The notes under the pieces are model-generated. The model was given only the letters and a program-made list of their open reading frames with translations, was not told where the DNA came from and did no database searches. 64,000 nucleotides of DNA from Betaproteobacteria bacterium (lineage in GTDB: Bacteria > Pseudomonadota > Gammaproteobacteria > Burkholderiales > Ga0077523), in contig WGLR01000012.1 in NCBI GenBank assembly GCA_016125475.1, positions 171,231 through 235,230 of the forward strand, read 5' to 3'. Shown here in pieces: positions 32,675 through 40,425 of this stretch. Made by a program: the position numbers and the translations under genes. The first letter of the stretch is position 1; each line of letters opens with the position of its first letter.

Positions 32675-33640
32675 TCAGCGCCCCGGCTTCTTCCCGGTCG
32701 TCGTCCTGCGGGGAGCGCGTTTCGCCGGCGCTGCGGCCCGTTTCGCGCCCGGTGCGCTGCGCCCCTTGCGGCCGGTCGCGCGGGACCGTGTGGCGGGAGC
32801 GGGAGGCTCGAGCGTGCGCGGGGCGTCCTCGACCCGCTCGATGAACGCGTTGCTGACCCATCCCTCGACGTCCGTCGGTCCGTCGACCTCGACCTTGCTC
32901 CACCGCTCCCCCGATTCGACGAGCAGCAGGGTCGTGCCCTTCCTGAGCGCGGGCGCGACGGTCTCGAAGGACGCGCCCGGTCCCTTGCGGATGTTCAGGG
33001 ACGACGCCGTGACGACGAACTTCTCGGGCGCATCCTCTTCCCGACCCATGGCGCGCGAGCGGATCGACGGGAGCGGAAACGCCGGACCAGGGTCGGTCTT
33101 GCGCGTGGGGGCGATGTCCTCGTGGCCGATGACGTCCTCCAGACCGTACGCCGCCACGAGCAGTTCGGCGAGCTCGAGTGCGCGCGCGATCTGCGGCTCG
33201 GTGTAGGCGTGCCACGGGCGGATGCCCCCTCCGTGCTTGTGCTCCGCCAGCATGACCTCGCTGTCGGGATACGAGCGGCCGAACCACGCGACGAACCTGT
33301 CGCCCACGCGGTTCAGGGCCCCCGCGTTGTCCATCTCGATCCCGATCGACCAGTTGTTCAGCCCCACGAGCCCGTTCCACTGGCTCACGCCGGCATGCCA
33401 GGTGACCACGTCGAACGGGGCGAGCTGCACGATCGTGCCGTCGCGCCCGAGCACGACGTGTGCGGAGGCATTGCCGCGAGGCTTGCGCGTGCAGAGCGAT
33501 TCCACGGAACTCTCGAGCGAGCTGCCGGCCGTGAAATGGAAAACGAGATAGCGCGCACGCAGCGCACCGCCGTGGTTCGGCGTCTCGCGGAAGCTCACCC
33601 TGTCGCCGACCAGACGGTGATTCTCGATCCTCAGCATCAT
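32675..33640 (-). CDS. N-acetylmuramoyl-L-alanine amidase (Amidase_2) with SH3b domain and cationic C-terminal tail
   Basis: YLVFHFTAG, NNWSIGIEMDN, VIGHEDIAPTRKTDPGPAFPL; SH3 SLNIRKGPGASFETV; Lys/Arg/Ala-rich tail; GGGAGG-like RBS before ATG at 33640. Confidence 0.85.
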   Translation of the reverse strand: MMLRIENHRLVGDRVSFRETPNHGGALRARYLVFHFTAGSSLESSVESLCTRKPRGNASAHVVLGRDGTIVQLAPFDVVTWHAGVSQWNGLVGLNNWSIGIEMDNAGALNRVGDRFVAWFGRSYPDSEVMLAEHKHGGGIRPWHAYTEPQIARALELAELLVAAYGLEDVIGHEDIAPTRKTDPGPAFPLPSIRSRAMGREEDAPEKFVVTASSLNIRKGPGASFETVAPALRKGTTLLLVESGERWSKVEVDGPTDVEGWVSNAFIERVEDAPRTLEPPAPATRSRATGRKGRSAPGAKRAAAPAKRAPRRTTTGKKPGR

Positions 33641-33695
33641 GACCTCCCGGTGGTGTGGAGCCACACGGCTCCGGTTTGAGTGCCGCGGCGCCCGC

Positions 33696-34778
33696 TCACG
33701 AACCTTCGGAACGCAGGTGGCGGGCGACCATCTCGACGAGCTCGACCGGACGCCACGTGAGGCCCCGCGCGCCGGCGCCCGCGGCTTCCGCGCGCCGGAC
33801 TGCCGCGCGCTGCGCGTCGAGGGCGCCGCAGTAGACCAGCGTCGGCACGTCCGGGTACGCGGCGTGGACCGCCTCGAGCAGGTGCAGCCCCTCGGGCCGG
33901 CCCGGTACCGCCGGATCCGGACGCTCCCAGTCCGTGATCACGAGCCCGACTCCCCCGCGTTCGAGTGCACGGAGGGCGGACACGGTGGACGTCGCGGTCT
34001 CGACCTCGATCTGCATGGCGTGGAGTGTCGCGATCTCGCGCACGTTGTTGTCCGGGCGATCGTCGACCCAGAGAACCCGTCCGGGGGCCGGCATGTTCAT
34101 GAGCGATTCGCCGACGGCACTCGCCTGTCGCCGTTCCGGAGCAGGTTCGCCGCGCGAGGCCTGTGCGGCTTCGAGGCGTTGCACGAAGCGGTTCACGACC
34201 TGCTCGCTGTCGCCACCGCCGTCGCGCGAGGCCACCACGTGCGGAGCCGACGGCGAGGACACCGCGCCGCCGACCGGACCGTCCGGCGCGCCAGGCGGGC
34301 TTCCTCCCGGAGGGGGCGGGGCGCGGTCCACCAGCCGCCGGACGACCGCACGCACGCCCCGGGCCACGCTCGTCCAGGCGGCATCGCGGTCGGGCCAGGC
34401 CGTCACGGGCTTCATGCCTTCCGGCAGACCCTGGAGGCGCGCGAACGGGGCGTCCTCCCAGATGACGTCCCGCACGATCACGGGAATGGCCACGGTCTCG
34501 CCCGCGTCGTGTCGCTCGAGCGCGCGGGTCATCTCCTTGCCCCAGCAGTAATCCGAGTCGATGAAGTCGGCGCTCACCAGGAACAGGACGAGATCGGCGC
34601 GTTCGAGGGCGTCGCTGATCTCGCCGGCCCAGTCTTCGCCGGCGACGATGTGGCGATCGTGCCAGGACCTGAGCACGCCGCGGCGCTCGAGAATCTTCAG
34701 GTGCGCCTCGAGTTCCTCGCGCAGGGGTTCGTCCTCGTGCGCGTAGCTGTAGAAGAGATCGACCGCGGCGTCCGTCAT
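33696..34778 (-). CDS. TIR domain protein with C-terminal response-regulator-receiver-like domain
   Basis: TIR: DLFYSYAHEDEPLREELEAHLKILERRG, GEISDALERADLVLFLVSADFIDSDYCWGKEMTRALER; Pro/Gly-rich linker; receiver-like RVLWVDDRPDNN...GLVITDWER...GLHLLEAVHAAYPDVPTLVYCG. Confidence 0.85.
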   Translation of the reverse strand: MTDAAVDLFYSYAHEDEPLREELEAHLKILERRGVLRSWHDRHIVAGEDWAGEISDALERADLVLFLVSADFIDSDYCWGKEMTRALERHDAGETVAIPVIVRDVIWEDAPFARLQGLPEGMKPVTAWPDRDAAWTSVARGVRAVVRRLVDRAPPPPGGSPPGAPDGPVGGAVSSPSAPHVVASRDGGGDSEQVVNRFVQRLEAAQASRGEPAPERRQASAVGESLMNMPAPGRVLWVDDRPDNNVREIATLHAMQIEVETATSTVSALRALERGGVGLVITDWERPDPAVPGRPEGLHLLEAVHAAYPDVPTLVYCGALDAQRAAVRRAEAAGAGARGLTWRPVELVEMVARHLRSEGS

Positions 34779-34908
34779 CGCTGATCCTTTCACGGCTCCC
34801 GGACAGCCCGCCCATCGACCCGATGACGGTGCCATGTGTGCGCCGATGCGGGCATACTGTCAAAGGGGCCCCGGGGCGTCAACGACCTGTCCTTCCGATC
34901 GTGCGAGC

Positions 34909-35598
34909 ATGCTATCCATCGTGATTCCGGCGCTTGACGAAGCGCAACATCTGGCCGAGCGCCTCGCGTCACTCGCGCCATTCCGCGCGCGCGGTTGCGA
35001 GATCGTCCTGGTGGACGGCGGGAGCCGGGACGCGACCGTCGAGATCGCGCGGGATCACTGTGACCGCGTGCTGCGCGCGCCGGCGGGACGCGCGTCGCAG
35101 ATGAACGCGGGTGCGCACGCCGCACGCGGAGAAACGCTGCTCTTCCTGCACGCGGATACCGTGCTTCCGGATGCCGCCGACCGCCTGGTCACGGATGCCC
35201 TCGCGACGGGCCGCCACGTGTGGGGACGTTTCGATGTCCGCATCGCGGGACGTTCCAGGTGGTTCGTCGTGATCGCGGCGATGATGAATGCGCGCTCGCG
35301 CCTGACGGGCGTGGCCACGGGCGATCAGGCGATCTTCTGCACGCGTGAGGCGTTCCGGCGTGCGGGTGGCTATCCGGACATCGCACTCATGGAGGACGTC
35401 GCGTTCTCGAAGCGCATGCGCGGATTCTCGCGCCCTGCGTGCCTGCCTGCGCGGGTCCGGACATCGGGGCGCCGCTGGGAACGCGATGGCGTATGGCACA
35501 CGATCCTGCTCATGTGGCGGCTGCGGCTCGCCTACTTCCTCGGGGTCGACCCGGGCGCGCTCGCGCGACAGTACCGGAGTCACCGTGGAGGAGACTGA
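34909..35598 (+). CDS. Family 2 glycosyltransferase of the arsenosugar-associated type (TIGR04283-like)
   Basis: MLSIVIPALDEAQHLAERLASL, VLVDGGSRDATVEIA, GRASQMNAGAHAARGETLLFLHADTVLP, GDQAIFCTREAFRRAGGYPDIALMEDV. Confidence 0.85.
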   Translation: MLSIVIPALDEAQHLAERLASLAPFRARGCEIVLVDGGSRDATVEIARDHCDRVLRAPAGRASQMNAGAHAARGETLLFLHADTVLPDAADRLVTDALATGRHVWGRFDVRIAGRSRWFVVIAAMMNARSRLTGVATGDQAIFCTREAFRRAGGYPDIALMEDVAFSKRMRGFSRPACLPARVRTSGRRWERDGVWHTILLMWRLRLAYFLGVDPGALARQYRSHRGGD

Positions 35599-37638: not shown

Positions 37639-40425
37639 ATGAGTCCGGTCGCTCCAGGCAGATCGGACTTGAAGCACTCCACCTCTCCCCGTTACTCCCG
37701 GTACCGTGGCCTGCATCTCGGCCTTCGCATCCGGTACGTGCTCGTCTTCGTCGCGCTCGCGGTGATCCCGCTGGGCATCGCGCTGGCTTTCCTCGTGCGC
37801 GGTGCGGCGGACCGCACGATGGCCGAAGCCGACCAGCGCATTCGCGCCGGCCTGGACCTCCGCATGCAGGCCGTGGCCGACGAGGTGCAGGGGATCCGGC
37901 GCGACCTGCAGCTCGTGTCCGCGATGCTCGGGCCCGAGGGGCGGCGCGAACTGCCGCCGGATGGACGAACGACGACCGGCCCGCTGTCCGCGGAAGAAGT
38001 GGAGCGCACGCTTCGGGATTTCCTGGACAGTCGCGAGGGGATCGTCTCGATCCGCTTCGCGGACCCGGCCGGGCGTGAACGCGTGCGGCTTCAGGCCGCA
38101 TCCGACGGCATCCGCGCCGTCGCGCCCGAGATGCTCGAAGACATCGCCGGCAGCGAGGCCTTCTCGCAGGCGCGAGACCTGACCCGCGGCAGTGCCTACG
38201 TCTCCGACATCCTCCCCGACGGCACGGATCTTCGCATGTCGATGCCGGTCTACGGGCGGGACCGTCTGGCGGGCGTGATCGTGCTCGACGTGCGGCCGGA
38301 CTTCGTCCGTCTCGCCAGACCCGGGAGCGAGCAGTTCGTGCTCGCTTCCGCGGACGGACGCTACCTGCTTCATGACGGCGATTCGCGGGGTCCCGCGCGG
38401 ACGATGCAGGACGACTGGCACGGGCTGGACCTCGCCCGCACGCACCTGGGCGAACTCGTGCGAGACGGGGACCGCACGCTGTACGTCAAGGCGTTCAACA
38501 TCAATGGCGGCGGCGTGCCGCGCGTGTGGCTCGCGGGCCTCGTCGAGCAGAGTGGCGAGTTCACCGCGGCCGCGGATGCCCTGCGCCACGGGTTCGTGCT
38601 GTTCGGCGGTGCCGTCGCACTCGTCGCGGCACTGCTGGCACTGCTCGCCGCGAACCGTGTGAGCGGGCCGCTCGTGGCCCTCGTCGATGCATCGCGGCGG
38701 ATCCAGGCCGGCGACAACTCGGTGCGGCTCAACGCCCGTCATCTCGGCGACCTGCGCGAGGTGGCGCGCTCGTTCAACGGCATGCTCGACGCGCTCACGC
38801 GCAAGAACGCCGAACTCGTGCGCGCCAAGGAAGTCGCCGAGTCGACCACGCGCACGAAGTCCGAATTCCTCGCGAACATGAGCCACGAGGTCCGCACGCC
38901 GATGAACGGTGTGCTCGGCATGCTGGAGCTGCTGGAACAGTCGCGCCTCGCGGCCACCGAGCGGGGATTCGTTCGCACCGCGAGGCAGTCTGCGGAGGCG
39001 CTGCTCTCGATCCTGAACGACATCCTGGACTTCTCCAGAATGGAGGCGGGAAAGCTGCATCTCGAATCGATCGACTTCGACCTGCGCGAACTGGCCGAGG
39101 ACGTGACCGCGCTGCTCGCGAAGCAGGCACACACGAAGGGCGTGGAACTCCTCTGCATCGTCTCGGGTGACGCACCGCTCGCGGTCCGTGGCGATCCGAC
39201 GAGACTGCGTCAGGTGCTCGTGAATCTGGTCGGCAACGCACTCAAGTTCACCCACAGGGGCGAGGTTGCGCTGAGCGTGCGAGGCGAAGCACCTCGGGCT
39301 CAGGGGGTGCCGGTGCACGTCGAGGTGCGGGACACGGGAATCGGCATGTCGCCGGAGGTGCTCGGTCGTCTGTTTCAGCCGTTCACGCAGGCCGACTCGT
39401 CGACCACGCGACGGTTCGGCGGTACGGGCCTGGGGCTCGCGATCACGCGTCAGCTGGTCTCGCTGATGGGAGGCACGATCGAGGTCCGCAGCGTGGAGGG
39501 CCAGGGAAGCACGTTCTCGTTCACGCTCGTGCTGCCGGCGGGTGACGGCACCGAGCGCGGGCACGTCACCGGCACGGCGCTTTCCGGTCTGCGCGCACTC
39601 GTGATCGACGACAACGCGACCAATCGCTCGATCATCGAACACAACGTCGCGTCCTGGGGCATGACCAGCACCTCCGTTGCCGGAGGCAGCGAGGGGCTCG
39701 ACGCGCTGCGCGATGCGAGAAAGGCCGGCGTGCACTACGACGTGATCCTGCTCGACCACCAGATGCCCGGGATGGACGGGCTGGAGTTCTCGCGCCGTGT
39801 CGCCCGGGAACCGGACTTCCGGAGCATTCCGCGTGTGCTGCTGAGTTCGAGCGGGATACTTCCCGCCGACGAGGCGTTCGCCGCCGGGATCGCGGGCAGC
39901 CTCGCGAAGCCGGTGCGGGCCCGGTACCTGTACGAAGCCGTCGCGTCCGCGACGGGCCGGCACGACGCGCACGAGGCGGACGCCCCGGCCGCGGCCCCGC
40001 CCGTCCTGCGGCGTGCCGGCCGGGTGCTGCTCGTCGAGGACAACCCCGTCAACCAGAAGGTCGCGGTCGTCACGCTCCGGCGACTCGGCTACGAGGTGCA
40101 GCTCGCGGAGAACGGAGTCCAGGCCCTTGCGGCGGTCTCGCAGGCGCCGTTCGACCTCGTGCTGATGGACTGTCAGATGCCCCAGATGGACGGCTTCGCG
40201 GCGACGCGTGCACTGCGGGAGCGGGAGCGGGTCGAGCGGCGCACGCGCATGCCGATCATCGCGCTCACCGCCAACGCCTTCGACGCCGATCGCGCGCAGT
40301 GCGAGGCGGCCGGCATGGACGACTTCCTCACGAAGCCGTTCAGACAGGAGCAGCTTCGGGCGACCCTCGATCGGTGGCTGATACCCGGCAGCGCTGGACG
40401 GAGCGGCCAGACGGTCGCCGGCTGA
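37639..40425 (+). CDS. Hybrid sensor histidine kinase with two receiver domains
   Basis: TM segment; HAMP-like region; H-box FLANMSHEVRTPMNGVLGM; HATPase GTGLGLAITRQLVSLMGG; receivers RALVIDDNATNRS...LLDHQMPGMDG and RVLLVEDNPVNQKV...LMDCQMPQMDG. Confidence 0.93.
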   Translation: MSPVAPGRSDLKHSTSPRYSRYRGLHLGLRIRYVLVFVALAVIPLGIALAFLVRGAADRTMAEADQRIRAGLDLRMQAVADEVQGIRRDLQLVSAMLGPEGRRELPPDGRTTTGPLSAEEVERTLRDFLDSREGIVSIRFADPAGRERVRLQAASDGIRAVAPEMLEDIAGSEAFSQARDLTRGSAYVSDILPDGTDLRMSMPVYGRDRLAGVIVLDVRPDFVRLARPGSEQFVLASADGRYLLHDGDSRGPARTMQDDWHGLDLARTHLGELVRDGDRTLYVKAFNINGGGVPRVWLAGLVEQSGEFTAAADALRHGFVLFGGAVALVAALLALLAANRVSGPLVALVDASRRIQAGDNSVRLNARHLGDLREVARSFNGMLDALTRKNAELVRAKEVAESTTRTKSEFLANMSHEVRTPMNGVLGMLELLEQSRLAATERGFVRTARQSAEALLSILNDILDFSRMEAGKLHLESIDFDLRELAEDVTALLAKQAHTKGVELLCIVSGDAPLAVRGDPTRLRQVLVNLVGNALKFTHRGEVALSVRGEAPRAQGVPVHVEVRDTGIGMSPEVLGRLFQPFTQADSSTTRRFGGTGLGLAITRQLVSLMGGTIEVRSVEGQGSTFSFTLVLPAGDGTERGHVTGTALSGLRALVIDDNATNRSIIEHNVASWGMTSTSVAGGSEGLDALRDARKAGVHYDVILLDHQMPGMDGLEFSRRVAREPDFRSIPRVLLSSSGILPADEAFAAGIAGSLAKPVRARYLYEAVASATGRHDAHEADAPAAAPPVLRRAGRVLLVEDNPVNQKVAVVTLRRLGYEVQLAENGVQALAAVSQAPFDLVLMDCQMPQMDGFAATRALRERERVERRTRMPIIALTANAFDADRAQCEAAGMDDFLTKPFRQEQLRATLDRWLIPGSAGRSGQTVAG

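Follow-up and report, generated by a model that had tools for sequence, protein, structure and literature searches.

A TIR-pseudoreceiver gene beside an endolysin-like amidase gene: probably a lineage-specific juxtaposition

Do a TIR protein and a peptidoglycan amidase encoded one behind the other on the same strand act together, or are their genes neighbours by accident? The question is raised by a 64,000-nucleotide stretch of a Betaproteobacteria bacterium genome (contig WGLR01000012.1 of assembly GCA_016125475.1, positions 171,231 to 235,230; hereafter the window), in which an initial annotation had proposed a two-gene defence or lysis module. We favour, with a probability of roughly 0.6, a lineage-specific and most likely chance juxtaposition, in which the TIR gene was inserted beside an amidase gene inherited within the genus.

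Two intact genes with conserved catalytic residues

The first gene encodes the protein that we call TIR-REC, with the following features:

33696..34778, minus strand: TIR-pseudoreceiver (TIR-REC) gene, 360 aa; ATG at 34778, stop at 33696, frame intact
34458..34754, minus strand: TIR_2 domain, residues 9-107 (Pfam PF13676, 3.1e-15)
34533..34535, minus strand: codon for E82, the putative catalytic Glu, in SDYCWGKEM, invariant in 22 aligned homologs
34215..34325, minus strand: disordered Pro/Gly-rich linker, about residues 152-188 (pLDDT <50 at residues 159-188)
33735..34076, minus strand: receiver-like domain, residues 235-348 (Pfam Response_reg 1.3e-5, CheY-type Foldseek matches, residue conservation)

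The protein combines a TIR fold with the conserved catalytic Glu of the TIR NADase/cyclase family, and the invariance of E82 among the 22 homologs bears out the initial reading of this residue; TIR-REC is a TIR-type protein, with NAD cleavage as its probable activity. The PADLOC ThsB model PDLC00420 matches at 3.7e-54 over residues 7-151, the TIR part only. In an AlphaFold model built from 22 homologs (mean pLDDT 87), the N-terminal domain is predicted with confidence, residues 159-188 form a disordered linker, and the C-terminal domain has CheY-type receivers as its Foldseek matches, in agreement with a Response_reg match that by itself (1.3e-5) lies below the Pfam gathering cut-off; the receiver-like label given at the outset is upheld by both kinds of search. 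Within this domain the acidic pair D239 and D240 and the acceptor D283 are present, and the usual Thr/Ser (here Y316-C317) and Lys are missing, both family-wide, so that the full residue set of a receiver is lacking. Because the Asp residues are kept but the phosphotransfer Thr/Ser and Lys are gone, we refer to the domain as a pseudoreceiver. The genuine matches in a PDB sequence search are the TIR domains of Cat1 and AbTIR, and CheY; designed PPR proteins, which head that search, are repeat artefacts. Close to the gene, at 37639-40425 of the window, lies a gene for a hybrid histidine kinase with a dCache sensor, a HAMP domain and two receiver domains.

Assignment of TIR-REC to a conflict/defence-type family is supported by the ThsB match and by homologs that adjoin caspase, CHAT, patatin and nSTAND genes. 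Within the family, the protein of the window forms the longest branch of the tree (3.6 changes per site) and deviates at more near-invariant positions than any other member (15 of 109 columns). These features, together with the lack of a partner nearby, would suit a passenger gene under relaxed constraint and with no present role; we consider this very improbable, given that the frame is open, GC3 is of coding type and the catalytic-type residues are all kept, and that another family member (L029) also deviates at 11 positions.

The second gene encodes the amidase:

32675..33640, minus strand: leaderless endolysin-like N-acetylmuramoyl-L-alanine amidase, 321 aa; ATG at 33640, stop at 32675, intact
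33083..33559, minus strand: Amidase_2 domain, residues 28-186 (Pfam 1.3e-25); Zn ligands H35, H173 and D183, plus E102
32837..33004, minus strand: SH3_3 domain, residues 213-268 (Pfam 4.8e-7)
32678..32794, minus strand: Ala/Pro-rich basic C-terminal tail, about residues 283-321 (from the amidase alignment)

Here, too, the initial description of the protein was accurate. The aligned amidases all share the Zn ligands H35, H173 and D183, along with E102 and K181, which gives the protein the His, His, Asp and catalytic Glu of Amidase_2/endolysin-type enzymes and supports its designation as endolysin-like at the level of sequence; no signal peptide is evident by inspection, in keeping with a leaderless protein. 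Its architecture, which is the same in congeners that lack the TIR gene, includes no ligand-sensing domain beyond SH3_3. The basic C-terminal tail is common to the congeners and to G059, a genome of another family of the order, and is missing from patatin-linked relatives. The gene does not lie in a recognisable phage lysis cassette: no holin adjoins it and its neighbours are chromosomal metabolic genes.

Gene order in congeners and the case for an insertion

The arrangement of the two genes with their divergent neighbour is as follows:

33641..33695, minus strand: 55 nt separating the TIR gene from the amidase gene; a GGAGCC-GTGT-GGCTCC hairpin lacking a T run, followed by a GGGAGG ribosome-binding site
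34779..34911, minus strand: spacer from the glycosyltransferase gene to the TIR gene, with a GTATGC core at 34852-34857
34912..35598, plus strand: gene of a family 2 glycosyltransferase, which in congeners G002, G005 and G006 directly adjoins the amidase gene in divergent orientation

In these three congeners the amidase is 70-72% identical to that of the window and diverges from the same glycosyltransferase gene, with start codons ~60 nt apart and no TIR gene between them. TIR-REC itself is absent from all 11 congeners searched; this absence and the TIR-less gene order together indicate that the TIR gene probably came in by insertion, separating the glycosyltransferase gene from the amidase gene. 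In G005 and G006 the amidase is present and TIR-REC and the CHAT protein described below are both absent, showing that the amidase persists alone.

Further, no amidase homolog was found near TIR relatives in 60 loci of bacterial and archaeal genomes, and no second instance of the pair came to light, within or beyond close relatives. The proposal of a conserved two-gene module is therefore unsupported. What finds support in the broader suggestion of TIR-based defence joined to lysis are its parts, a conflict-type TIR family and an endolysin-like amidase, and not their conserved pairing. A dedicated abortive module, in which NAD loss or a TIR-made messenger would act through the amidase to cause lysis, is correspondingly unlikely in our view. 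It would account for the shared strand, the 55-nt distance and two intact active sites, and it has a counterpart of sorts in type IV Thoeris, where, according to a passage in PMC12847820, a TIR messenger switches on a caspase-like hydrolase, the TIR domain here being ThsB-like. Against it stand the lack of a second pair and an amidase that has no ligand sensor beyond SH3_3 and looks the same where the TIR gene is missing. Among the proteins encoded beside the TIR gene (the Amidase_2-SH3 amidase, glyoxalase-type, EamA and glycosyltransferase proteins), no Thoeris messenger-sensing effector was recognised.

The surroundings of other amidase relatives are varied. Relatives adjoin patatins in G654, G739 and G463, a papain-type protease in G577 and a GTA-type holin in G364 (probably also in G917, by similarity of its neighbour), and further ones lie in prophage-like surroundings. 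Such variety points to a versatile family, in which being neighbours says little about function by itself. In G463 (locus L158 4909-8700, contig C3) the amidase relative shares one strand with genes for a class 3 lipase and a patatin phospholipase, and amidase-patatin neighbours also occur at L154 and L160. In G305 (L127 5778-12154, contig C6) a relative is flanked by genes for an AAA ATPase and an eCIS_core protein, in the style of a contractile-injection cluster.

If the favoured juxtaposition is correct, a horizontally mobile TIR-pseudoreceiver gene would have inserted between the glycosyltransferase gene and the divergent, genus-inherited amidase gene, probably downstream of the old promoter of the latter. 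Congeners without the TIR gene have a GTATGC core upstream of their amidase gene; in the window this core is found beside the glycosyltransferase gene, beyond the TIR gene, in a promoter-region match of only ~10 bp. Since the TIR gene would have come to lie between the amidase gene and the promoter region of the latter, both genes may now be read on one transcript. A GGGAGG motif precedes the tandem ATGs of the amidase; a terminator scan found nothing terminator-like in the 55-nt gap and one weak site within the amidase gene, RNA folding of 33641-33695 was no better than that of shuffled sequences, and a sigma-70 promoter scan found no promoter.

Several observations weigh on the other side. 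The 55-nt same-strand spacing confirmed here fits cotranscription. Flanking repeats that might mark the insertion of the TIR gene were sought, and only chance-level short repeats were found; the gene has the same composition as its surroundings (GC 0.72, GC3 0.86), so that a compositional sign of recent transfer is absent. The short promoter match and an operon in G059 described below also count against the favoured reading. Whatever its origin, the TIR protein may cleave or convert NAD+ in an E82-dependent manner during a conflict response, possibly against phages, with the phosphotransfer-defective receiver domain restraining or triggering the TIR domain. The amidase, as a predicted zinc enzyme, would cut the MurNAc-L-Ala bond, for which it would need a route across the membrane or would use cytosolic muropeptides as substrate.

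CHAT partners and wall hydrolases

Full-length relatives of TIR-REC, 36-46% identical, occur in Thauera (commonly), Nitrospira, Thiotrichaceae and Burkholderiales. Many family members are solo, for example in Thauera; adjacent partners, where present, are a caspase (Peptidase_C14), a ~1,900-aa CHAT protein, a patatin (at two loci together with a TPR-S protein) or an nSTAND-WD40 protein. The ~1,900-aa protein, which carries a DUF7379/LCAT-type hydrolase together with CHAT and TPR-S domains, adjoins TIR-REC in five loci, several of them also with a caspase, and TIR-REC lies directly beside a caspase gene in L005 and L023.

Tabulated across genomes, the statistical partner of the TIR family is this CHAT/DUF7379 protein and not the amidase for which co-occurrence had been envisaged. 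Of 26 genomes with TIR-REC, 21 encode the CHAT protein, versus 7 of 149 genomes of the order (Fisher p 9e-17); counted by genus, the figures are 10 of 13 with TIR-REC versus 5 of 90 (p 3e-8). These p-values are indicative because the genome sets compared are taxonomically unlike, with Thauera over-represented. It also occurs in four of the 11 congeners without TIR-REC and so does not depend on the latter. The caspase-CHAT pathway is thus more likely than the amidase to be the functional partner of the TIR protein. Around the window genes, a caspase and a CHAT gene are both absent; the genome encodes its CHAT protein on contig C10, unlinked to the TIR gene and with no partner adjoining. This solo DUF7379/CHAT protein of ~2,000 aa (L124 6444-12998, G000:C10) lacks a caspase and is separated from flagellar genes by a few others.

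The closest amidase outside the genus, 61% identical, is that of G059, where a same-strand operon encodes a kinase, a caspase, the amidase, a CHAT protein and a TIR-membrane protein, with ~40-nt gaps flanking the amidase gene. At this locus (L107 1714-11841, G059:C1) the kinase is a Ser/Thr kinase with a Usp domain, the amidase an Amidase_2-SH3 protein and the CHAT protein a giant of DUF7379/CHAT/TPR-S type. The caspases of G059 and L023 are 69-71% identical, and in L023 the slot between caspase and CHAT is taken by TIR-REC. This operon suggests that the meeting of TIR with amidase may not be chance, and through it a link between a TIR conflict protein and wall lysis may exist.

Other hydrolases also lie near CHAT genes. 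In congener G002, a CHAT gene is followed by genes for a GH108 muramidase carrying a peptidoglycan-binding domain, a TIR protein and an nSTAND-like protein, all on one strand (L203 2174-11869, G002:C10), and G008, G009 and G499 have an M15 peptidase gene that faces CHAT without being in the same operon. The M15 genes L206 5246-6007, L207 5100-5804 and L227 8510-9223, which face caspase-CHAT or CHAT genes, comprise two that are 91% identical in congeners and one in another family. All three hydrolase types, Amidase_2, GH108 and M15, match phage endolysin families. Altogether, a peptidoglycan hydrolase lies next to CHAT in five of 29 loci, which had not been picked for wall enzymes except for G059 (found via its amidase), the pattern having been noticed afterwards; no wall hydrolase adjoins CHAT at three annotated plasmid loci that served as a later, out-of-sample check.

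On this basis, TIR-REC and the amidase could be accessories of a scattered caspase-CHAT/DUF7379 conflict system, with the amidase as wall-lysis effector and the CHAT core on another contig. The G059 operon, the occupation of the same slot by TIR-REC beside the similar L023 caspase, the hydrolases adjoining CHAT elsewhere and the CHAT gene of the window's own genome would all agree with it; however, G005 and G006 keep the amidase with neither TIR-REC nor CHAT, hydrolases are found at a minority of the 29 CHAT loci and at none of the plasmid ones, and the M15 genes face the CHAT gene instead of sharing an operon with it. We regard a scattered system as possible but doubtful, and give slightly less credence still to the more specific proposal that unrelated endolysin-type hydrolases form an exchangeable lysis arm of caspase-CHAT, in the slot of TIR-REC, of which the window pair would be a stripped and relocated piece.

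We therefore retain the juxtaposition as the preferred reading. The pair itself, seemingly an older gene with an insertion next to it, then matters little; more worth following are the association of TIR-REC with CHAT across genomes and the endolysin-type hydrolases in or beside caspase-CHAT operons. The strong co-occurrence of the giant CHAT/DUF7379 protein with the TIR-pseudoreceiver family may also explain orphan copies, and if phage-lysin-type hydrolases at caspase-CHAT operons are confirmed, wall lysis would be an execution step of caspase-based bacterial immunity.

Relation to known systems

A literature search for a defence pair of TIR and peptidoglycan amidase returned no relevant paper, and a text search for "amidase" in PMC7159879 and PMC8195603 gave no match. 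The amidase of the window is ~30-41% identical to phage lysins over the full amidase and SH3 parts (PHROG 1794 amidase, 1e-35) and shares its Zn site with the Amidase_2 enzymes AmiD and AmpD; it differs from all of these in being chromosomal and genus-inherited, without an adjoining holin and with a basic C-terminal tail.

The TIR domain of TIR-REC belongs to the same sequence group as Thoeris ThsB, with the invariant Glu, but TIR-REC adds the receiver-like C-terminal domain, and no ThsA-type effector (SIR2-SLOG or TM-macro) was recognised adjoining it. In type IV Thoeris, a TIR messenger activates a caspase-like protease (Rousset 2025, as cited in a passage of PMC12847820), and the TIR-REC homologs of L005 and L023, directly beside a caspase gene, resemble this arrangement; TIR-REC operons differ by the additional DUF7379/CHAT/TPR-S protein, and the window by having no adjacent caspase.

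Similar in their range of components are the conflict systems of Kaur 2020 (PMC7159879), with TIR, caspase and receiver domains among their parts and with lysozyme- and papain-like wall-attacking effectors predicted in a related class, and of Kaur 2021 (PMC8195603), where stand-alone receivers are suggested to be nucleotide-responsive switches. A locus in G027 (L112 6466-12732, contig C28), where the gene for a TIR protein is followed by that of a MoxR-like ATPase and by one of very large size, resembles MoxR-vWA conflict systems. TIR, caspase, alpha/beta-hydrolase, nSTAND and stand-alone receiver components are common to the Kaur systems and those described here, whereas the core is DUF7379/CHAT here and MoxR-vWA there, and of this set the window carries TIR-REC only.
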